From: Pseudomonadota bacterium
GTDB lineage: Bacteria; Pseudomonadota; Gammaproteobacteria; Xanthomonadales; Rhodanobacteraceae
Direction: 5' to 3'
NCBI GenBank assembly: GCA_021805685.1
Contig: JAJZET010000081.1
Span: forward strand, 1 to 48,182
DNA length: 48,182 nucleotides
The notes beneath the pieces were generated by a model, which did not search any database, was not told the origin of the DNA, and saw only the letters and a list, made by a program, of their open reading frames with translations. A program made the position numbers and the translations under genes. This document shows positions 12,432 through 48,182 of the stretch, one piece after another. Position 1 is the stretch's first letter. The number at the start of each line of letters is the position of its first letter.

Positions 12432-14750
12432 ATGAAACGCCTTGTCTCGTTGTCCCGTGCCTGCCTGCTGCTCGCGCTTGCGCTGCTGCCCCTGCGGGCG
12501 GCGATGGCGGGCGAGGCGTCCCGGCCCTCGTTGATTCCGCTGCCGGCGCAACTCGCGCTGCACCATGGCGGCTTCGTCGTCGATGCGAACACGCCCATCG
12601 TGCTGGCCGACCAGCATGCCTCGACGCGACAGACGGCGGACTACCTGATCGGCCTCGTGGCGCGTACCCGCGGCCTGCACCTGCATGTTGCGGACGACGC
12701 CAAGGCTGCCCACGCGATCGTGCTGCAGCGCGACCCGCAGGCGCCGGTGGCGCAGGCCGAGGGCTATGCGCTGGACGTCACGCCGCAGGGCATCCGCGTC
12801 ACCGCGCGCGACGCCGCCGGCCTGTTCCACGGCGCGGTCACGCTGGCCCAACTGCTGACGCCCGACGCGAAGCAGGGGGCGGTGGACGTCCACGCGCTGT
12901 CCATCCGCGACTGGCCGCGCTTCGCCTGGCGCGGCCTGATGCTGGATTCCGCGCGCCACTTCCAGAGCGTGGCCGACGTCGAGAAGCTGATCGACCAGAT
13001 GGCCCAGCTCAAGCTCGACGTGTTGCACTGGCATCTCACCGACGACCAGGGCTGGCGCATCGAGATCAAGCGCTATCCCGAACTGACGAACATCGGCGCG
13101 TGGCGTACGCCGCCCGGCGCCGGCCATGACGGCGAGCCGAAACGCTACGGCGGCTACTACACGCAACGGCAGATCCGCGCCGTGGTGGCCTACGCCGCCG
13201 CGCGCCACGTCACCATCGTCCCCGAGATCGACATGCCCGGCCATGCCCAAGCCGCGGTGGCGTCCTACCCGCAGATCGGCGTGACGGGGAAGCGCCCGCA
13301 GGTGTCCACCGACTGGGGCGTGAATCCCTGGCTGTACAACGTCAACGACGACACCTTCACCTTCATCGACAACGTGCTCGACGAGGTGATGGCGCTGTTC
13401 CCGTCGACATACATCCACGTGGGCGGCGACGAGGCGATCAAGGACCAGTGGAAGGCCTCGCCCGCCGTGCAGGCGAAAATGCGCCAGCTCGGCATCACCG
13501 ACGAGGACGCGCTGCAGGGCTGGTTCATCGGCCGCATCGGCCAGTACCTCGAAAAGCACGGGCGCAAGCTGATCGGCTGGGACGAGATCCTCGAAGGCGA
13601 CAACCTGCCCGCCGACGCCACCGTGATGTCCTGGCGCGGCACCGACGGCGCGATCAAGGCGGCGCTGCTCGGCCACGACGTGGTGATGTCGCCCTCGCCC
13701 GAGTTGTACTTCGACCATGTGCAGAGCAACCTCGCCGACGACTATGCCGGCCGCCTCGGCGTGGAATCGCTGAAGGACGTCTATGGGTTCCAGGCCGTGC
13801 CCGGCGTGCTCAACGCCGCACAGGCGAAGCACGTGCTGGGTTTGCAGGCCAACGTGTGGACGGAGCACATGCCCACCTTCGCGCACGTGGAGCATGCGGT
13901 ATTCCCGCGCCTCGACGCCTTGAGCGAGGTGGCATGGTCGCCCGCCGCCAGCCACGACTGGCCCAGCTTCCTCGCGCGCCTGCCAGCGCAGCTGCAGCGG
14001 TACCGTGCGCAGCACGTCGCCGTGGCCGACGACGCCTTCGCGGTACGCATCGGCACCGACCGCAACCTGGCGCTGGCCACCGGCAAGGCCACGGTGACGC
14101 TGTCGGACCAGGCCGGCTTCGGCGTCATCCGCTACACGCTGGACGGTAGCGTTCCCACCCCGGCGTCGCCGCGCTACGTCGCGCCGTTCGAGGTGACGCT
14201 GCCGGCCACCGTACGCGCCGCCAGCTTCGCCGCCGACGGCAGCGCGCTGGCCGCCGCGCGCGAGCGCACGCTGGATCGCGCCGCCCTGCTCAGCCTGCCC
14301 GGCACGGAGCTGGCCAATTGTGCCGGCAGCGATTTCCGCCTGCGCCTGCAACCCACGCCGGATGCCACCAGCACGCAGCCTGTGTATGCGGTGAACATCT
14401 TCGACGATTGCCAGCAGTTCCCCCCCACGCTGATGGACGGCGTCACCGCCATCCACGTCGATGCGGTGCGGTTGCCGCGCAATTTCGCGCTGGCGCACGA
14501 GCAGAAACTGGTGGTGTCGCGCCCGCACGCCACACCGTTCGGCGAGCTGGTGGCGCATGCCGACGATTGCGCCGGCAGGGTACTGGCCAGCATGCCGCTG
14601 CCCGATCCCGCGCACAGCCCGAGCACGTTCAAGCTGGATGCAAGGCTGCCCGCGCAAAGCGGCGTGCACGCGATCTGCCTGCTTTACACCGCGCCCGTGG
14701 ATGGGCCGCTGTACGCGATCGGCCGCGTTGCGCTGCACGCCGGCCGCTGA
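12432..14750 (+). CDS. Beta-N-acetylhexosaminidase, glycoside hydrolase family 20
   Basis: Releases terminal N-acetylglucosamine or N-acetylgalactosamine from chitooligosaccharides and glycans by substrate-assisted catalysis. It has 772 residues with a signal peptide cut near AMA (26), so it is periplasmic or exported. An N-terminal GH20b domain precedes the TIM barrel beginning RFAWRGLMLDSARHF. LHWHLTDDQGWR, PEIDMPGHA and the catalytic pair Asp333-Glu334 in HVGGDE are all intact. After the barrel comes a chitobiase-type C-terminal domain (VIRYTLDGSVPTPASPRY), then an unassigned beta-rich end with several Cys residues. The start ATG at 12432 has AGGAG six bases upstream. It lies behind a terminator, so it may have its own promoter, but it belongs functionally to the sugar locus. 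Confidence 0.93.
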   Translation: MKRLVSLSRACLLLALALLPLRAAMAGEASRPSLIPLPAQLALHHGGFVVDANTPIVLADQHASTRQTADYLIGLVARTRGLHLHVADDAKAAHAIVLQRDPQAPVAQAEGYALDVTPQGIRVTARDAAGLFHGAVTLAQLLTPDAKQGAVDVHALSIRDWPRFAWRGLMLDSARHFQSVADVEKLIDQMAQLKLDVLHWHLTDDQGWRIEIKRYPELTNIGAWRTPPGAGHDGEPKRYGGYYTQRQIRAVVAYAAARHVTIVPEIDMPGHAQAAVASYPQIGVTGKRPQVSTDWGVNPWLYNVNDDTFTFIDNVLDEVMALFPSTYIHVGGDEAIKDQWKASPAVQAKMRQLGITDEDALQGWFIGRIGQYLEKHGRKLIGWDEILEGDNLPADATVMSWRGTDGAIKAALLGHDVVMSPSPELYFDHVQSNLADDYAGRLGVESLKDVYGFQAVPGVLNAAQAKHVLGLQANVWTEHMPTFAHVEHAVFPRLDALSEVAWSPAASHDWPSFLARLPAQLQRYRAQHVAVADDAFAVRIGTDRNLALATGKATVTLSDQAGFGVIRYTLDGSVPTPASPRYVAPFEVTLPATVRAASFAADGSALAAARERTLDRAALLSLPGTELANCAGSDFRLRLQPTPDATSTQPVYAVNIFDDCQQFPPTLMDGVTAIHVDAVRLPRNFALAHEQKLVVSRPHATPFGELVAHADDCAGRVLASMPLPDPAHSPSTFKLDARLPAQSGVHAICLLYTAPVDGPLYAIGRVALHAGR

Positions 14751-14829
14751 ACCACCGGCGGCAGGGATACCGCTTCGCTCGGCGCCGGGGTGACCGGCCG
14801 GCATCGCGCACCGGCTGCCGGCGCGGCGA

Positions 14830-19158
<4,329 letters not shown>

Positions 19159-19323
19159 GCAGGCAGGGTGCGATGGCCTCGGGGACTCCCGATTCTACGC
19201 GCACCGGTTTGCCCGCAAATCGCCATGCACGCCGGTGCGCCGCCATGCCAAGATGCGCCTTGCCGCCGCTCGCGAGGATGCCGAGGGGAGTCCGCAGGCT
19301 GCGCGCTCATGCGAAGGAAACGT

Positions 19324-21333
19324 ATGCGTACTCGATGCGATGGGGTGATCCGCCGTCTCCGCCGGGTCGGCATGCTGGTGCTGGTGTCGGCATGGGGTGT
19401 GGCGACGGCGCATGCGGCCAGCCTCGATGCCGCGCTGCTGCCGACGATCCAGTCGGCCACCTTCGAGGTGGTGCAGGCCAAGCCGGCCAGCGATCCGCTG
19501 AGCTACGAGAAACCGCTGCCGCTGGACCTGCTTCCCTACCAGGAGCGTACCGACAAGTACTACTCCATCGGCACCGCGTTTTCGATCGGCCACGGCCGCT
19601 ACGTGACGGCGGGCCACGTGCTGATGGCCGGGCTGGACAGCCTGTGGGGGCCGCCCGAGCTGCGCGACGGCGCCGGCCACGTCTACCCGATCGCCAGGAT
19701 CGAGAAATTTTCGCTGCGCCAGGACTTCGTGGTGTTCACGCTGGCGCGCCAGCCGGCCGGCGACGTCGCGCTGGCGATCGACCGCACGCCCGCGCTCAAC
19801 CAGGTGGTCTATGCGGTGGGCAATGCGCTGGGCACCGGCGTGGTGATCCGCGACGGCCTGTACACCTCCGACACGCCGGAGGCGCAGGACGGCGCCTGGA
19901 AGTGGATGCGCTTCTCCGCCGCCGCCTCGCCCGGCAACAGCGGCGGCCCGCTGCTGGACAAGGACGGCAAGGTCATCGGCGTGGTGCTGATGAAGTCGGC
20001 CAACGAGAACCTCAACTACGCGCTGCCGATCCGCGAGGTGCTCGACGCCCCGGACGGCAAGGCCGTGATGGATACGCGCGTCAACTACCGGATCGACCTG
20101 TTCGACACGGTGCAGAACGGGCAGCTCAAGACCGGTTTCGCCCTGCCCGAAAGCCTCGCCAGTTTCTATCGCGACTACCAGACACGCTTCGACGCAAACG
20201 AGGACGGCCTGCAGAAGGCGTTGCTGGACCACGAGTCCGCCCGGCTGTTCCCGAACGGCGCGGGTTCGGCACGGCTGCTGCACGAGCAGGTGGCGATCAG
20301 CAGCTTCCCGTCGCTGATCGTGCGCGGCAGCAATGGCGAATGGGGACGCACCAACACCCAGTCGCGCTACTTCGCGCTGGACGGCAACGGCTACGTGCGC
20401 GTCGGTGCGGCCGGGCACGACGCGTTGATCCGCATCCGCCGCCCCGACGGGATGGATGCGGCGAAGTTCTACGGCGATGCGCAGGTACCGATGGACCTGC
20501 TGGCGCGCACCGGGCTGTTCCAGCGCACGGTGGCCAGCGAGAAGATCACGATCACCTCGCTCGGCAAGCCGACGCTGGAATCGACGCACGTCGACCGCTG
20601 GCAGCGCCCCTGGCGCATCGCCGTCTGGCCGCTGCCCTACGCCAACGCCCTCGTGGTGACGTATTCCCTGCCGGTGCCGGACGGTTGCCTGATGATGGTG
20701 CGTTTCGTGCCGCCGGCCGGCCTGCATGACGCGAGGCTGGACCTCGACGAGCTCAGCAGCTTCGTCTACGCCACCTACCAGGGCACGCTGGCGCAATGGA
20801 AGGAGTTCCTCGGCGACCGCGCGCTGCAGCCGGCGGCGTTCCGCAACATCCGCATCGGCTACGACTACGGCCGGCGCTTCAGCTATGCCTCGCAGCGGGT
20901 GGCCTTCTCGTATCCTTCCTCGTTGCAGCCGGTCAAGCCGGGCAACCTGCTGCAGCTGGGCTTCCAGTTCTTCCTCGACGGCGGCAAGCCGGTGTGGGAC
21001 GTGGCGGCCGTGAATGTCTGGAAGACCCAGGCCAGCGACGACCAGGACGAGGTGAACGTGCAGCGCCATGCCGCACCGCCGTCCGGACTGGACGAGGACA
21101 TGAGCAGTCGCTGGCGCAAGCTGGTCGGGCGCGAATACCCCTACAACGCCGTGGCCAATGCCGAGAATGGCCAGATGAGCATCGATGCGGTGGCGCCGTC
21201 CGGGGCCGCCGGCAGCCGGGCGTCCTCGGTGCTGTACACCGCCTTCTACGGGGCCACCGGCACGCGGGCCCAGGACTTCATGAAGGGCAAGCTCGACCTG
21301 CTGACGAAAGACCTGCAGGTGATGGAGCATTGA
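19324..21333 (+). CDS. Secreted trypsin-like serine protease with long unknown C-terminal region
   Basis: 669 residues. A basic N-terminus and hydrophobic core (GMLVLVSAWGVATAHA) form a signal peptide cut near residue 31. The chymotrypsin-fold triad is visible: His98 in YVTAGHVL, Asp134 in LRQDFVVF, Ser206 in SPGNSGGP. The protease domain ends near residue 245. No PDZ domain follows, unlike DegP. The remaining roughly 420 residues are a beta-rich region I do not recognise, including FPSLIVRGSNGEWGRTNT and a lipid-modifier-like FYGATGTRAQDFMKGK. The start ATG at 19324 is preferred because AAGGAA lies five bases before it. An upstream in-frame ATG at 19309 is weaker. The next gene, a lipase-like hydrolase, starts 75 bp downstream in the same direction. 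Confidence 0.85.
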   Translation: MRTRCDGVIRRLRRVGMLVLVSAWGVATAHAASLDAALLPTIQSATFEVVQAKPASDPLSYEKPLPLDLLPYQERTDKYYSIGTAFSIGHGRYVTAGHVLMAGLDSLWGPPELRDGAGHVYPIARIEKFSLRQDFVVFTLARQPAGDVALAIDRTPALNQVVYAVGNALGTGVVIRDGLYTSDTPEAQDGAWKWMRFSAAASPGNSGGPLLDKDGKVIGVVLMKSANENLNYALPIREVLDAPDGKAVMDTRVNYRIDLFDTVQNGQLKTGFALPESLASFYRDYQTRFDANEDGLQKALLDHESARLFPNGAGSARLLHEQVAISSFPSLIVRGSNGEWGRTNTQSRYFALDGNGYVRVGAAGHDALIRIRRPDGMDAAKFYGDAQVPMDLLARTGLFQRTVASEKITITSLGKPTLESTHVDRWQRPWRIAVWPLPYANALVVTYSLPVPDGCLMMVRFVPPAGLHDARLDLDELSSFVYATYQGTLAQWKEFLGDRALQPAAFRNIRIGYDYGRRFSYASQRVAFSYPSSLQPVKPGNLLQLGFQFFLDGGKPVWDVAAVNVWKTQASDDQDEVNVQRHAAPPSGLDEDMSSRWRKLVGREYPYNAVANAENGQMSIDAVAPSGAAGSRASSVLYTAFYGATGTRAQDFMKGKLDLLTKDLQVMEH

Positions 21334-21408
21334 CCGGCAGGCATGGCGGCTCGCGGACCGGCGCGCGCCGCGGGGTGCCGCCCCGCATTCGATGATGGAA
21401 AGACCAGC

Positions 21409-22305
21409 GTGAAACAGCCAGATCCCGCGACGCGAAAGGCGCCGGACACCGACCCGACGGCCGGCACGGCATGGCTGGCCATGCCCGACGGCCAGCAGCT
21501 GCGCCTGCGCGACTGGCCGGCAGCGCAGGCGCGTGGAGCGGTGCTGGTGGTGCACGGGCTCGGCGAGCACGCCGGCCGCTACCGCCAGCTCGCACAATGG
21601 TTCAACGACCGCGGCTACGCCGTGCGCGCCTACGACCAGCGCGGCCATGGCGAGAGCCCCGGGCCGCGCGGCGTGCTGGCGCATCCCGACGACCTGCTCG
21701 CGGACCTGTCGGTGGTGCACGCCGACTATGCGCGCTCGCTGGGCGCCGCGCCCTTGCTGCTGGGCCACAGCATGGGCGGGCTGGTGGCCTTGCGCGCCGT
21801 GCTGGACGGACGCGTCGCGCCGCGGGCGCTGGTGCTCTCCTCGCCCGCGCTGCGCAGCCATGCCTCGCCGGGCCTGCGGCGGCTGGCGGCGGTGCTGGCC
21901 CGCGTGCTGCCGGACCTGCGCCTGCGCAACGGCCTCGACCTGCCGCGGCTGAGCCACGACGCGCGGGTGGTGGACGCCTACCGCGCCGATCCGCTGTGCC
22001 ACGACCGCGTCAGTCCGCGCCTGGCCGACTTCATCTTCCGCGCCGGCGCATCCTGCATCGCCGACGCCGGGCGCCTCGACCTCGCCACGTTGCTGCTGGT
22101 GGCCGGCGAGGACGCGCTGGTCGACGCCGCGGGCAGCCGCGACTTCTCCGCCGCCGCGGCAACTGCACAGCGGCTCACCACGCGTTACTTCGCTGCGCTG
22201 TACCACGAACTGTTCAACGAGGCAGAACCCGGCCGCAGCCAGGTGCTGATGCAGCTGGCGGACTGGTTGCAGCGCCTGCCGACCGCGAGCGCCGCAGGAG
22301 CCTGA
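21409..22305 (+). CDS. Alpha/beta hydrolase, monoacylglycerol lipase-like
   Basis: 298 residues of the serine aminopeptidase/Hydrolase_4 type. The early motif VLVVHGLGEHAGRY forms the oxyanion region, YDQRGHGESPG follows, and the nucleophile elbow is GHSMGG with Ser121. The acid is probably Asp235 in VAGEDALVD and the base His266 in LYHELFNE, which is the usual HELFNE context of monoacylglycerol lipases. No signal peptide, so it is cytoplasmic. The start GTG at 21409 has GGAAAGA upstream. The frame extends to an ATG at 21343, but that part looks non-coding. It may be co-transcribed with the protease before it. The real substrate could be a mono- or lysophospholipid. Confidence 0.85.
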   Translation: MKQPDPATRKAPDTDPTAGTAWLAMPDGQQLRLRDWPAAQARGAVLVVHGLGEHAGRYRQLAQWFNDRGYAVRAYDQRGHGESPGPRGVLAHPDDLLADLSVVHADYARSLGAAPLLLGHSMGGLVALRAVLDGRVAPRALVLSSPALRSHASPGLRRLAAVLARVLPDLRLRNGLDLPRLSHDARVVDAYRADPLCHDRVSPRLADFIFRAGASCIADAGRLDLATLLLVAGEDALVDAAGSRDFSAAAATAQRLTTRYFAALYHELFNEAEPGRSQVLMQLADWLQRLPTASAAGA

Positions 22306-22340
22306 GCCGCGCAAGCGCCGCCCGATTCCAGCCCGGGGTG

Positions 22341-22383
22341 GCCTTCAGGCACATTCGCCGCGGCGCGAAGCCGGGCATAAAGG
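22341..22383 (+). repeat. GCCTTCAGG...GGGCATAAAGG intergenic element, copy 2
   Basis: 43 bp element: GCCTTCAGGCACAT, a perfect GC-rich palindrome CGCCGCGGCG, then CGGGCATAAAGG. The copy at 25688-25730 has the same length and differs only at the palindrome centre and the following spacer. It lies about 65 bp upstream of the first RND gene and could carry its promoter, with CATAAA as a -10-like hexamer. Confidence 0.6.
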
Positions 22384-22447
22384 GAGGCCGGGAACGGACG
22401 CTGGACGCACGGTGTCTGCGGTTATGCTGGCGCGCCACGGAGGACAC

Positions 22448-25400
22448 GTGAACATCTTTGCCCCCATGATCCGCCGGCCGGTCGGCACCTCGCTGCTGGC
22501 GATCGGCCTGGCCATTGCCGGCCTGTGCGCCTATCTGTTGCTGGGAGTGGCGGCATTCCCGTCGATCGAGTTCCCGTTCATGGCGGTGTCCGCGCAGTTG
22601 CCGGGCGCCAGCGCGCAGGTGATGGCGAACACCGTGGTGGCGCCGCTGGAGCGCCACCTGGGGCGCATTCCCGGGGTGGCGCACATGAGTTCCACCGCCA
22701 CCGAGGGCGGGGCACAGATCTTCCTGCAGCTGGATTTCGGCCGCCGACCGGACGAGATGGCGCGTGACGTGCAGGCGGCGATCAACGCCGCGTTGCCCGA
22801 CTTGCCGCAGCTGCCCAACCCGCCGGTCTATTTCAAGGCCGACAGCTCGAAGATCCCCATCCTGCTGGTGTCGCTGACCTCGACCAGCCTGCCGCCGGAC
22901 AAGCTCTACGACCTCACCGACACGCTGCTGAAGCCGGCGGTGGCACAGATCCCCGGCGTGGCGCTGGTGCAGGTGGGCGGCGGTGCGCCGCACGCGGTGC
23001 GGGTGGCGCTGGACAGCGCCGCGCTGGCGCATGCCGGCATCACCGCGAACGAGGTGGCGAACGCGCTGCGCGCGGCCAACGTGACCTCGCCGCAGGGTGC
23101 GATCGGCAATGGCTCCACCCAGATGACGGTGTCCGCGAACGACGCGCTGCATACCGCGCGGGACTTCGCCCGGCTGGTGATCGCCAGCCACAACGGCGTG
23201 CCCGTGCGCCTGTCCGACGTGGCCACCGTCACCGACGGGCAGCAGGACAAGTACGCCGCGGCCTGGTTCAACGAGCATCGCGCGGTGGTGCTGCGGATCA
23301 CCAAGCGCCCGGAGGCGAACGCGGTGGCCACCGTGCAGGCGATCCGCGCGCGCCTGCCGCAATTGCGCAAGCTGCTGCCGGCGGACGTGAAGATCACGCC
23401 GATCTTCGACCTCACGCCCACCACCCTGTCGGCGCTGCACGAGGTGGAAGTGGCGCTGCTGATGAGCGTGGTGATGGTGGCGCTGGTGATGCTGGTGTTC
23501 CTGCGCCGCAGGCGGCCCACGCTGATCGCGATGTTCAGCGTACCGCTGTCGCTGGCCGGCGCGTTCGTGGTGATGTGGGCGCTGGGCTTCACCCTCAACA
23601 TCTTCTCGCTGGTGGCGCTGGTGCTGTGCGTGGGCTTCGTGGTGGACGACGCGATCGTGGTGATCGAGAACATCGTGCGCCACATGGAACAGGGCATGCC
23701 GGCGCTGGAAGCCGCGCTGACCGGCGTGCGCGAAATCGGCTTCACGGTGATCTCGATCACGCTGTCGCTGATCGCGGTGTTCGGTCCGATGGTGTTCGGC
23801 AACAACATGTTCATCCTGCTGATGCGCGAGTTCTCGGTGACCCTGATCGCCACCATCGTGATCTCCGCGCTGGTCTCGCTCACGCTCACGCCGGCGCTGT
23901 GCGGCAGCTGGCTGGCCGGCGACGACCTGCATGCGGTGCGCCGGCCGGGCCGGCTGGAGCGCTGGGCCGAGCGCTTCGACCAGGGTTTCCTGCGCCTGTA
24001 CGAGCGCGGGCTGGACTGGGCGATGAAGCATCGCCGGCTGATGCGCTGGCAACCGCCGATCCTGCTGGTGCTGACCATCGTGCTGGCGGTACTGGTCGGC
24101 ATGACCGCCGGCGGCGGCATCATGCCGAAGGAGGACACCGGCCTGATCAACGCCAACATCACCGCCGACGCGAACATCTCGCCCACCCTGATGATGAAGC
24201 GCACCCAGCAGGTGGTGGCGCAGATCCACGCCGATCCGGCGGTGCTGGACATCACCGCTTCGGTCGGCGGCGGCCCGGGGTCGGTCGCCAACCAGGCGGG
24301 CCTGTTCATCGACCTGAAGCCGCTGGGCAACAAGCCCGGCGACCGCCACGCCTCCGCGCAACAGGTGGTGGACCGGCTGGCGAAGAAATTCAAGAATGTG
24401 CCGGACCTCGACGTGACCCTCACCGCGCAGCAGTTCATCAACATGGGCGGTGGCGGCAGCAGCGGCGTGGGCCGCTATTCGTTCCAGCTCACCAGCACCA
24501 GCGGAACGCCGCTGCAGCAGCCCACGCTGGACCTGGAACGGGTGATGCGCGGCATGAAGCAGTTCCGCGACGTCACCTCGAGTTTCGACAGCATCGGCAA
24601 GCAGCAGATGCTCGAGGTCGATCGCGCCGCCGCGGCACGGCTGCAGCTCAACATGGCCCAGATCGACAACGCGCTGTACGACGCCTTCGGCCAGAACCCG
24701 ATCTCGACGATCTACTCGGACATCAACCAGTACCGCGTGGTGCTGACCTCGGATACCGCCGGCACGCTGAGCCCGGATACCCTGCTCAACACCTACGTGC
24801 GCAATACGCAGGGCAGGATGATCCCGCTGTCGGCGGTGGCGCGCATCAAGTCGCAGATCGCGCCGGTGAGCGTCAACCACTACGACCAGGTCGAGTCCGC
24901 GTCGATCAACTACAACCTGGCCGATGGCGTGAGTCAGGCGGACGGCCTGAAGCTGGTGGACCAGGCGATTTTCGCCGCCCACCTGCCGCCCGGCGTGCAG
25001 AAGAAGTACACCGGCGAGAACCAGGACCTGCTGGAAGCGCTCACCAATTCGCTGCTGCTGTTGCTGGCGGTGATCGGCGCTATGTACGTGGTGCTGGGCA
25101 TCTTGTACGAGAGCCTGATCCACCCGCTGACCATCCTGTCGACGCTGCCGGCGGCGGGCATGGGCGCCTTCCTGGCGATGCTGCTGACCCACACGCAGCT
25201 GACCGTGATGTCGGTGATCGCGGTGCTGATGCTGATCGGCATCGTGAAAAAGAACGCGATCCTGATGGTGGACTTCGCGCTGGTGGCGGAGCGCGAGCGC
25301 GGGCTGGACGCGCCGGCGGCGATCCGCGAGGCGGCGCTGGTGCGCTTCCGCCCGATCACCATGACCACGCTGGTGGCGATGGGTGCGGCGCTGCCGCTGG

Positions 25401-37433: not shown

Positions 37434-38115
37434 CGAGCCGCTGGCGCGGCGGCGCCTCGCGGCACTGCTGGGCGAGTGCGAGGACGTGGAACTGGCCGGC
37501 AGCGTGGGCGACGGCGAAGCCGCGCTGGCCGCGCTCTCCGAACTGCAACCCGACCTGTTGCTGCTCGACATCAACATGCCGGCTGTCGACGGCCTGGCGC
37601 TGGCCGCGCGGCTGGCGGGACAGGCGCGACCCAGGGTGGTGTTCTGCACCGCGTACGAGAACCACGCGCTGCATGCTTTCGAGCTGGATGCGGTGGATTA
37701 CCTGCTCAAGCCGGTGCGGCTGGAGCGCCTGCGCGAAGCGTTGCAGCGGGTGCGCAAGCGGCTGGCGGACGAGCCGCGCCCCACCACCGCCTGGCTGCAT
37801 GCACGGGTGCGCGACGAGCAGGTGCGGGTGGCGCTGGACGAAGTGGTCTGCCTGCTGGCCGAGGAAAAATACGTGCGCGTGCGGCACGCCGGCGGCGAGC
37901 TGCTGATCGACGAGTCGCTGCGCCAGCTGGAGGAGGCCTATCCGGAGCAGCTGATCCGCCTGCACCGCAACTGCCTGGTGCCGCCGGCGCGCCTGCTGGG
38001 CCTGAAGCCGCTGGCCGACGGCCGCGTGCTGGCACGCCTTGCCGGCACCGATTTCAGTCCCGAAGTGAGCCGGCGCAACCTGCCGGCGTTGCGCAAGCTG
38101 CTGCGGATGGGATGA
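37411..38115 (+). CDS. algR: LytTR-family response regulator AlgR
   Basis: 234 residues. The receiver domain carries the acidic pair Asp7-Asp8 in LIVDDEP, phosphorylation site Asp53 in LLLLDINMP, and switch Lys100 in YLLKPV. The C-terminal LytTR DNA-binding domain (about 130-232) includes CLLAEEKYVRVRH and IRLHRNCLVPPARL, with the family's LHRN core. The ribosome site AAGGGGGCGG lies inside the end of algZ. It is the expected partner of the overlapping kinase. Confidence 0.9.
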   Translation: MRVLIVDDEPLARRRLAALLGECEDVELAGSVGDGEAALAALSELQPDLLLLDINMPAVDGLALAARLAGQARPRVVFCTAYENHALHAFELDAVDYLLKPVRLERLREALQRVRKRLADEPRPTTAWLHARVRDEQVRVALDEVVCLLAEEKYVRVRHAGGELLIDESLRQLEEAYPEQLIRLHRNCLVPPARLLGLKPLADGRVLARLAGTDFSPEVSRRNLPALRKLLRMG

Positions 38116-38184
38116 GCGGCGCCGCTGCGCAGTAGGCGCGGCATCGGCGACAATGGCGCGTCCCGTTGCCGCGATGGAACCTTC

Positions 38185-39096
38185 ATGATCCCCAGCACCC
38201 TGCGCATCGCCACCCGCCAGAGCCCGCTCGCGCTTTGGCAGGCCGAACACGTGGCGGCGTTGCTGCGCGCGGCCCACCCGGGGCTGGCGGTGGAGCTGGT
38301 GCCGATGACCACGCGCGGCGACGAGATCATCGACCGGCCGCTGGCGAGCATCGGTGGCAAGGGCCTGTTCCTCAAGGAGCTGGAAGTGGCGATGCTGGAA
38401 GGCCGCGCCGACCTGGCCGTGCATTCGCTGAAGGACGTTCCGGCGGAGCTGCAGCCGGGTTTCGCCCTGCCGGCGATCCTGCCGCGCGCGGATGCGGCGG
38501 ATGCCTTCGTCAGCAACCGCCACGCTGGACTCGCCGACCTGCCGCACGGCGCGCGGGTGGGCACGTCGTCCCTGCGCCGGCAGGCGCAACTGCGCGCGTT
38601 GCGGCCGGACCTGGAGCTGCTGGACCTGCGTGGCAACGTGGGCACGCGGCTGGCGAAACTGGACGCCGGCCACTACGACGCCATCGTGCTGGCCTGCGCC
38701 GGACTGGAGCGTTTGGATCTCGCGGCGCGCATCCGCAGCCGGCTGGTCGCGCCGGACTGGCTGCCGGCGCCGGGCCAGGCGGCGGTCGCCATCGAGGCGC
38801 GCGCCGACCAGCCGCAAACGCTGGCCCTGCTCGCCGCGCTGGACGATGCCGATACGCGGCAGGAAACCACCGCCGAGCGCGCGATGAACCAGGCGCTGGG
38901 GGGCAGTTGCACGGTGCCGGTGGGGGCATGGTGCACGTTCACCGAGCACGGCCTGCACCTACGCGGACTGGTCGGCGATGCGGCCAGCGGCCGGCTGCTG
39001 CGGGCGCAGGCGGACGGCGACGATGCCGTGGCGCTGGGGCAGGCGGTGGCGCAGGCGCTGTTCGCCCAGGGTGCGGCAGAGTTCCTGGGAGCCTGA
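38185..39096 (+). CDS. hemC: Hydroxymethylbilane synthase (porphobilinogen deaminase)
   Basis: Polymerises four porphobilinogen units into hydroxymethylbilane for haem and sirohaem. 303 residues, normal length. Seen in sequence: [31 protein letters not shown], catalytic Asp84 in [18 protein letters not shown] with the substrate-binding Arg residues, and the dipyrromethane-cofactor Cys242 in GGSCTVPVG. The hemC position after algR is conserved in several gammaproteobacteria. Here hemD does not follow: the next gene is on the other strand, so uroporphyrinogen synthase must be encoded elsewhere. A TGGAAC sits close before the ATG. Confidence 0.96.
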
Positions 39097-46479: not shown

Positions 46480-46531
46480 GCCGCGCCCCGCCTCCGGCAT
46501 TGTTGCAGTCCGGTGCGGCGGTCCACCCCAT

Positions 46532-46604
46532 GGCTATGTAGCTCAGCCGGTTAGAGCACAGCACTCATAAGGTTGGGGTCATCCGGGGTACAATCTGAAA
46601 TTCT
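46532..46604 (+). pseudogene. Decayed tandem copy of tRNA-Met
   Basis: GGCTATGTAGCTC and the following D-arm up to CTCATAA repeat the 5' half of the intact tRNA that starts at 46605, with anticodon CAT retained. The anticodon stem 3' side (GGTTG) no longer pairs fully, and the T-arm and acceptor 3' strand are replaced by CATCCGGGGTACAATCTGA. The spacer AATTCT matches the sequence that follows the intact gene (CCAGAATTCT), so this was once a tandem duplicate whose 3' half was lost. Confidence 0.75.
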
Positions 46605-46681
46605 GGCTATGTAGCTCAGCCGGTTAGAGCACGGCACTCATAATGCCGGGGTCGGTGGTTCGAGTCCACCCATAGCCACCA
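46605..46681 (+). tRNA. tRNA-Met (anticodon CAT), elongator type
   Basis: 77 nt including encoded CCA. The acceptor GGCTATG pairs with CATAGCC. The D-arm GCTC/GAGC, anticodon stem CGGCA/TGCCG with loop CTCATAA, variable GGGTC, and T-arm GGTGG/CCACC with TTCGAGT are all regular. The acceptor begins with a G-C pair, as in elongator rather than initiator tRNA-Met. A terminator follows 31 bp later. Confidence 0.96.
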
Positions 46682-46712
46682 GAATTCTAAGCAAAAACAG
46701 CGACTTACACCA

Positions 46713-46741
46713 AAAAAGCCCGCCTGCGTCGCGGGCTTTTT
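46713..46741. terminator. Bidirectional Rho-independent terminator after tRNA-Met
   Basis: AAAAAGCCCGC (46713-46723) and GCGGGCTTTTT (46731-46741) are perfect 11-bp arms with loop CTGCGTC, giving a T-run on both strands. Confidence 0.93.
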
Positions 46742-47261
46742 CGTGCCCAAATGACCCTGGCGTAACTCGTGCTTGGGTCCATCGCTTGCGACGCGCCTCC
46801 ATTCATCGAAAAAACAGCCGTGCCTGGTCCGTGCCCGGATCCGTGCCCAAAGCGCGCGACCCAACACGACCTGAAAGCGCTGAAATGACCCCAGCATGAG
46901 CGGTAACGAAGCTGCCGATGTACAACCCGCTACGCCCGTGGCGAAAGCGCATCTCCTGGTTGATCCGAGTGACCGGTAGATCAGCACCCAGGATGCGCTG
47001 GATGTCTGCCAGCTGACCGGCGTAGATCAATGCACCTCGCGATTTCCGCCAGCACTCCTTGCTTCGTCCCCAAGGAAGCGGATGATCGCAAAGTGCCTCA
47101 TCAGAGGCTTGCTTAAAGGTCATCGATGCTGGGGCGGACACCATCGGCATGCGCTTGGATAAGCCGGTGCGAGACGAATTACTCCTGCCTCGCACCGATC
47201 TTGTTGAGGCCCAAGTGTATCCGTCGCAGCTTTTGAGATTGGCTAAACGTACGGTGACCTC
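46742..47261. other. Low-GC gap between tRNA-Met and cas3, no convincing gene
   Basis: 520 bp with visibly lower GC than the preceding 46 kb. A minus-strand frame covers 46803-47151 or more (it includes LIYAGQLADIQRILGADLP and ends GTDPGTDQARLFFR), but it has no recognised domain and no good ribosome site. It could be a remnant of a mobile-element gene. A frame over the tRNA itself gives the well-known VDSNHRPRHYECRALTG artefact. No CRISPR repeats and no integrase motifs are seen. Confidence 0.5.
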
Positions 47262-48182
47262 ATGGACAAGTATCGCCCGATAGCTCATGCCGCCCGCGAT
47301 GCTTCTGGAAAGTGGCGAGACCCGCATGATCTGGTCGACCACCTAGAGAGTGTCGGCCAGCTTGCTGCCGGTTTTGCCGTACATTTCGGGGCGGACTGGG
47401 CGCGCCTAGCCGGGCGCTGGCATGACCTCGGCAAGTTTCGTCCACGTTTTCAGCGCTATATCCGGCTCGCGAGTGGTTTCGAGGCGGATGCTCATATCAA
47501 GGGCGAGGCAGGCAAAGCGCCGCATTCCACGGCAGGGGCAATGCTGGCAATGGATCGTCTTGGTGTGGCCGGTCGGGTGTTGGCCTACCTGATTGCCGGC
47601 CATCATGCCGGTTTGGCCGATTGGTTTGGCAGTTTGGATGCGCGGTTCACCGACCCTGCGAGCCGCGCGGAGCTGGCTGAGTCGCTGACCGAGCATCCGC
47701 CTGCGGATATTCTCGATACACGGGATTTCAAGGCCAACCTCCGAAACATTCCCGGCGGCAAGGACGGCTTTGCACTGTGGGTGCGGATGCTGTTCTCGGC
47801 GCTTGTCGATGCGGATTTTCTTGATACCGAGCGATACATGGATCCGGAAAAATTCGCATCGCGAAACACTTGGCCGGCACTGGATAGCCTGGTGCCGTCG
47901 TTCGACGCGCATATGGCGAAACTGGCCGCCAATGCCGCCGCCACCCCCGTAAACGCGTTGCGCGCCGATATCCTGCGGCAATGCCGCGCAGCCGCGGCGC
48001 TGGACCCGGGCTTGTTCTCGCTGACCGTGCCGACCGGTGGCGGCAAGACGCTTTCCGGCATGGCCTTTGCTCTGGAGCACGCGCGCCTGCACGGCAAGCG
48101 CCGCATCATCCATGTCATTCCCTACACCAGCATCATCGAGCAGACCGCTGATGTGTTCCGCGGAATTTTCGATGAGGCCGTG
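47262..48182 (+). CDS. cas3: CRISPR-associated nuclease-helicase Cas3 (N-terminal part, type I-C-like)
   Basis: Open for 307 codons to the window edge. The HD nuclease domain shows His27, the His54-Asp55 pair in WHDLGKF, His88 in HSTAGAM, His114-His115 in AGHHAGLAD, and Asp183 in LVDADFLD, all expected metal ligands. The helicase begins with Walker A TVPTGGGKT (255-263) and then IIHVIPYTSIIEQTADVFR (motif Ia), as in Cas3 of type I-C. Cas3 is recruited by Cascade to unwind and degrade target DNA. The subtype call rests on this N-terminus alone. The ATG at 47262 has only a weak GGTGA before it. Codon use is less GC-biased than neighbours, consistent with transfer. cas5, cas8 and cas7 should follow outside the window. 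Confidence 0.93.
   Translation, partial: MDKYRPIAHAARDASGKWRDPHDLVDHLESVGQLAAGFAVHFGADWARLAGRWHDLGKFRPRFQRYIRLASGFEADAHIKGEAGKAPHSTAGAMLAMDRLGVAGRVLAYLIAGHHAGLADWFGSLDARFTDPASRAELAESLTEHPPADILDTRDFKANLRNIPGGKDGFALWVRMLFSALVDADFLDTERYMDPEKFASRNTWPALDSLVPSFDAHMAKLAANAAATPVNALRADILRQCRAAAALDPGLFSLTVPTGGGKTLSGMAFALEHARLHGKRRIIHVIPYTSIIEQTADVFRGIFDEAV

Follow-up and report, generated by a model that had tools for sequence, protein, structure and literature searches.

A truncated type I-C cas3 gene beside a tRNA-Met probably marks the left end of a genomic island in a Rhodanobacteraceae draft genome

The stretch of DNA analysed here (the window) is an entire contig, C211, of 48,182 bases, from the draft genome G000, a bin of 294 contigs that is 87.2% complete. 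The plus-strand open reading frame at its right edge (47262–48182) stays open to the final base of the contig and, according to the ORF list and profile searches, encodes the N-terminal 307 residues of a Cas3 protein of type I-C, comprising the whole HD domain and helicase motif I. Positions 1–177 of the 178-position cas3_HD profile TIGR01596 match residues 24–189 (E = 4e-25), which places the HD nuclease domain at 47331–47828 (+), and profile and motif reading put the start of the helicase domain at residues 254–305 (48021–48176, +), with a Walker A sequence, PTGGGKT, at residues 257–263. The segments HDLGK (residue 54), HHAGLAD (114), LVDADFLD (181) and PTGGGKT (257), which we take to be catalytic motifs, are all intact. 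Since the full Rhodanobacter thiooxydans Cas3 ORF is 760 amino acids long, about two fifths of the gene fall within the window.

The best PADLOC model for the protein is Cas3c (E = 9e-80), whereas the best Cas3b model reaches only 2e-30, and the phmmer matches in the PDB, 8zns_A (E = 1e-69) and 8g9u_P (E = 1e-64), cover residues 6–303 or 7–303. Judged by these comparisons, the protein is of the I-C kind, an assignment made on its first 307 residues, in which the helicase domain is visible just at its start. The initial annotation had read this ORF as a Cas3 with a complete HD domain and the beginning of an SF2 helicase, and the near full-length TIGR01596 match, the Cas3c score and the intact motifs all agree with it.

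Among the best 80 of 124 confirmed related loci in genome_contigs, 51 carry cas3-cas5c-cas8c-cas7-cas4-cas1-cas2 in this same order. In 26 of the 29 incomplete loci within those 80, the available stretch stops no more than 838 bases past the last cas match, so operons cut by a contig end are common. The nearest relative, R. thiooxydans LCS2 (L011; NZ_AJXW01000063), has a Cas3 that is 86% identical at the amino acid level over the 307 residues, together with a complete cas3-cas5c-cas8c-cas7-cas4-cas1-cas2 operon followed by an array of GTCGCGCCCTCACGGGCGCGCGGATTGAAAC repeats, and it also shares 32 bases with the window at an equal distance 5' of cas3. The two loci differ in that the R. thiooxydans cas3 comes after an S9-family peptidase-like ORF, with no tRNA in the 16.8 kb examined, and in that its operon is complete with an array whereas the window has the start of cas3 alone. 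Relatives on plasmids (52 records) are every one less than 60% identical. In an Alcaligenaceae bin we observed an orphan truncated type I-C cas3 of 431 amino acids (L024, 9965–11260) that adjoins a mutS-like ORF; the 9.7 kb downstream of it contain no further cas match and no CRISPR-like array.

The cas3 ATG lies 580 bases past the end of a tRNA-Met at 46681, in keeping with the spacing of roughly 0.6 kb given by the initial annotation. This leader (46682–47261) begins with a terminator-like stem and a run of T's recognized by eye just past the tRNA and has a GC content of 0.576, the lowest value for an equal-length stretch elsewhere being 0.598. From 46682 to 48182 the GC content is 0.603, and none of 45,100 equal-length stretches in 1–46600 is as low (minimum 0.623). 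The cas3 part taken alone (0.620) is matched or undercut by 305 of 45,680 equal-length stretches and is thus within the range of the window, so the drop is chiefly due to the leader; the claim that the locus is poorer in GC than the preceding 46 kb stands for 46682–48182 as a whole but not for cas3 by itself. In R. thiooxydans, the GC content of cas3 is 0.612 versus 0.680 in the preceding 5.75 kb. We considered and rejected the presence of a phage or integrase gene in the leader: neither of two minus-strand ORFs of this region (46803–47342 and 46616–46987) matches Pfam at thresholds as loose as E = 1, and the sole PHROG match is at chance level (E = 0.41). The 32 bases shared with R. thiooxydans (47216–47247, +; 94% identical), which have no counterpart in the other 79 loci compared, are possibly part of a cas promoter or 5' region.

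The tRNA-Met (CAT; 46605–46681, +), which a tRNA scan reports as complete, forms the left border of the putative island. It is directly preceded by a broken tRNA-Met copy (46531–46604, +), delimited by eye, that keeps its first 40–50 or so bases and is degenerate toward its 3' end. In its collinearity with the rppH flank this broken copy resembles the single tRNA of relatives, and by eye the complete copy has a G-C pair in the anticodon stem where 13 of 15 relatives have A-T in their only tRNA-Met. The double arrangement is common to the sister genome G008 and to G007, whose sequence is diverged and which lacks the present insert. A scan of 20 of the 80 related cas3 loci revealed no tRNA, so we rejected the idea that the tRNA is part of the CRISPR locus itself.

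Of the 94 other genomes that have an rppH match, we compared 16 in their tRNA-Met neighbourhoods, counting G008 apart from the other 15. In six of these 15, queD starts 57–65 bases past the tRNA-Met; in four it is farther off on the same side, at about 8.6 kb (G003), 12.3 kb (G006) and 13.4 kb (G007 and G010, the latter by arithmetic from coordinates); in the remaining five it falls outside the stretch compared, two of them being cut at 3.4–3.5 kb by contig ends. Apart from a 100% identical leader in G008, nothing resembling the cas locus is present at this site in the compared relatives. The initial annotation had called for a comparison with related genomes lacking the locus, and such genomes exist: six have an empty site and the others different DNA. 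The order tRNA-Met then queD is likely the pre-insertion state, and the variety of DNA past the tRNA among relatives identifies the interval between tRNA-Met and queD as a hotspot for insertions. Past the tRNA-Met, G017 has a 520-residue phage integrase-like ORF, identified by reading the translation only. By the same kind of reading, G052 (L150) carries restriction-modification-like ORFs within about 5 kb past the tRNA-Met, which suggests that the site is a defence hotspot. Our searches of open-licence papers, Rhodanobacter included, brought up no report on the tRNA-Met/queD site.

The queD gene of G000 sits not on C211 but on contig C225. Read toward the tRNA, C225 keeps its resemblance to the relatives across the queD leader as far as AGCCACCA, where close matching stops. 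These are the last eight bases of tRNA-Met, exact at the junction, with 14 of 18 positions agreeing over a longer stretch. The initial annotation had predicted a second copy of the tRNA 3' end as attR; the eight exact bases beside queD are compatible with one, but a 25-base pattern of the tRNA end, allowing up to three mismatches, occurs once in G000, in the complete tRNA itself. Beyond the junction, about 17 kb running to the end of the contig are unlike the relatives: the 14 other genus members give short or diverged matches only (the longest being 456 bases at 69%) in a comparison that scored at most 20 candidates per genome and from which weaker matches may be absent. The GC content of this DNA is 0.638, versus 0.675 at 14000–25000 of the same contig. 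It encodes a tyrosine integrase (37612–38892; Phage_integrase, E = 4e-20) about 8.4 kb from the right junction, which presumably belongs to the same island as cas3. From synteny, we infer that C211 and C225, which are not physically joined, are two ends of one insertion.

The C225 side of the putative island also encodes a subtilase autotransporter and four further ORFs with no Pfam match. Near the contig end (L177 15080 to L181 2170) is a 1696-residue protein with two weak, sub-cut-off Pfam matches to integrase families; beside it, a gene for an HTH protein precedes one for a PIN-domain protein, an apparent toxin-antitoxin pair. A 50-base sequence on the same contig (L177 10130–10179) recurs at several positions in many genus members, in copies that are about 83–100% identical and have sharp ends, and is perhaps an insertion-sequence end.

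We searched the 87%-complete bin for the remainder of the operon. The cas3_core model has ten matches in G000, one of which is the window cas3, and the rest of cas3 is absent among them. Six of these loci, on C103, C80, C253 and C18, have no match to the seven R. thiooxydans Cas proteins at E = 0.01; the other three matches lie at C211 16516–20532 (elsewhere in the window) and on C258 and C291. When the R. thiooxydans operon DNA was compared with the bin (40 of 214 candidates scored), it returned only the window cas3 and one 25-base stretch on C164, and cas8c, cas5c, cas7, cas4 and cas2, sought in this way, were not found. The C164 stretch is an exact match inside the R. thiooxydans cas3, and we take it as chance because the surrounding DNA yields nothing with the Cas proteins. 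Further matches, on C287, C105 and C276, map past the R. thiooxydans array. The Cas1 family PF01867 has no match in either G000 or G008, with control matches in 9 of 14, and the 31-base R. thiooxydans repeat is absent from the G000 bin at up to three mismatches, a search that concerns arrays with that repeat only. The description of the right edge as a CRISPR-Cas locus thus finds support in the type I-C Cas3, but our searches of the 87%-complete bin recovered neither an array nor the other cas genes. We best read the missing operon parts as unassembled sequence, an explanation favoured because contig C211 ends inside cas3.

The left end of the putative island is shared with G008 in an unusual way. 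The two genomes align over 11.8 kb with 542 differences, all of them upstream of a final stretch (46561–47165; 605 of 605 bases identical) that runs up to the end of the G008 contig. The 11.2 kb upstream of 46561 differ by about 5%, that is, they are about 95% identical; at this rate the chance of 605 bases free of differences is about 1e-13, and no other identical run exceeds 222 bases. The identical run starts inside the broken tRNA copy and spans the tRNA junction. Either the island end was exchanged recently between the species of G000 and G008, or the two bins share the reads of one sample. Because the G008 bin has no cas3, no queD and no close copy of the C225 right-end DNA, the presence of the same island in G008 is unconfirmed.

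Within the family set of 233 genomes, long close matches to the window cas3 DNA occur in two of the 232 others (two candidates per genome scored, so that weaker or additional matches may have been missed): G252 (82% over 967 bases), which agrees with R. thiooxydans LCS2 at every one of 3,967 compared bases, and G204 (76% over 860 bases), whose contig is identical to the related locus L014. Shorter diverged matches of 68–84% over about 70–180 bases, found for example in G115, G038, G123, G196, G178, G264, G047 and G012, were not counted as close. A Cas3 match is present in just two of the 14 other genus members, at 48% (G012) and 30% (G011) identity. We built a Cas3 tree by a 'quick' method without bootstrap from 87 rows, one per locus and each with an aligned length above 200 (the 80 genome_contigs loci, six loci of relatives, L092–L097, and the window). 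In it, the window forms a pair with R. thiooxydans (support 89) within a group consisting mainly of betaproteobacteria; the second close copy from Rhodanobacteraceae, L014, clusters with Thiomonas (99). This pattern would fit transfer between bacterial classes, though bins may contain stray contigs.

With related bacteria having nothing or other inserted DNA at the spot, the cas3 fragment lies most likely in a mobile genomic island. Our preferred reading, to which we assign a probability of about 0.7, is that a genomic island inserted between tRNA-Met and queD has its left end at the right edge of the window and carries a type I-C locus, assembled only as far as the early part of cas3. Insertion by a tyrosine-family integrase would have taken place at the tRNA-Met 3' end, so that the left side kept a complete tRNA and the right side, beside queD, only its last bases. 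In type I systems, a crRNA-guided complex recruits Cas3, which unwinds and cuts invading DNA. If the unassembled stretch holds cas5-cas8c-cas7-cas4-cas1-cas2 and an array, a crRNA-guided Cas5-Cas8c-Cas7 complex would recruit this Cas3, and the recruited Cas3 would unwind and cut invading DNA; a complete and working cas operon in G000 is thus putative. The mobile or acquired island suggested by the initial annotation gains from the hotspot, the tRNA junction, the C225 integrase, the full identity with G008 across the junction and the scarcity of this cas3 in the family, but the right repeat is just eight bases long. The absence of any other cas gene or matching repeat from the bin, the unjoined state of C211 and C225, the lack of cas3, queD and close C225 right-end DNA in the G008 bin and the ordinary GC content of cas3 (0.620) likewise count against our preferred reading.

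The same missing genes would be expected if the island formerly had an I-C locus of which a truncated cas3 alone remains beside the tRNA. The bin lacks Cas1, the rest of cas3 and other operon DNA, and the Alcaligenaceae orphan is a true case of such a remnant in a relative, but in the window the frame stays open through the last base, with HD motifs and Walker A preserved, and the break in the gene coincides with the contig end. Moreover, an 87%-complete bin in 294 contigs can account for the missing genes, and 26 of 29 incomplete relatives' operons are cut by the end of the available stretch. We consider a remnant unlikely. A resident, vertically inherited locus that adjoins the tRNA by chance would agree with the nearest Cas3 in the tree coming from the same family, yet queD or other DNA occupies the site in relatives, just two of the 14 other genus members have a match, and both close Rhodanobacteraceae pairings lie with mainly betaproteobacterial or Thiomonas sequences. 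The empty sites largely refute vertical inheritance, which we regard as highly improbable.

The GC shift at the tRNA junction, the fragmentary state of both G000 and G008 (each 87% complete) and the start of the identical stretch inside a repeated tRNA sequence could instead reflect an assembly or binning artefact, in which foreign DNA was joined through a common tRNA sequence and the G008 identity stems from shared metagenome reads. Such an artefact seems quite improbable to us since (i) G007, a relative at a greater distance, shows this arrangement of double tRNA and terminator-like structure too, in diverged sequence of its own, and (ii) the native right junction and the integrase on C225 independently indicate an occupied site.

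An island carrying a type I-C locus at the tRNA-Met/queD site would have precedents. In Pseudomonas aeruginosa, type I-C CRISPR-Cas has been reported on pKLC102-like integrative elements (PAGI-34; PMC5136561). As presented in that report, PAGI-34 resembles the present case in being an acquired genomic island with an I-C locus, intact, interrupted or absent depending on the isolate; it differs in the bacterium concerned, and in the window the start of cas3 alone is assembled. Type I-C systems on integrative elements being already published, the window is an ordinary further case cut short by assembly. It adds one more likely instance in which an integrating element has spread a type I-C system, at a tRNA-Met/queD hotspot of the family that probably takes defence genes among other cargo, and leaves knowledge of the CRISPR mechanism unchanged.

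An old tandem duplication whose first copy then decayed may account for the double tRNA-Met, as may the border of an integrated element. That such elements can leave partial tRNA genes behind is well known (PMC9897764); in the example given there, an island flanked by 44-bp direct repeats separates the partial and complete copies, whereas in the window the copies stand in tandem at one border and G007 has both without an insert. A bolder and rather doubtful proposal is that the CRISPR island, lately moved between two species of the genus, brought its own complete tRNA-Met and left the host gene as a 5' stump, in which case this tRNA-Met copy of the cell would now come from the island. The relative-like 5' flank and 5' tRNA half, followed by full identity between G000 and G008 from 46561, the G-C allele of the tRNA included, speak for this proposal, but the double tRNA of G007 without the insert fits an older tandem duplication.
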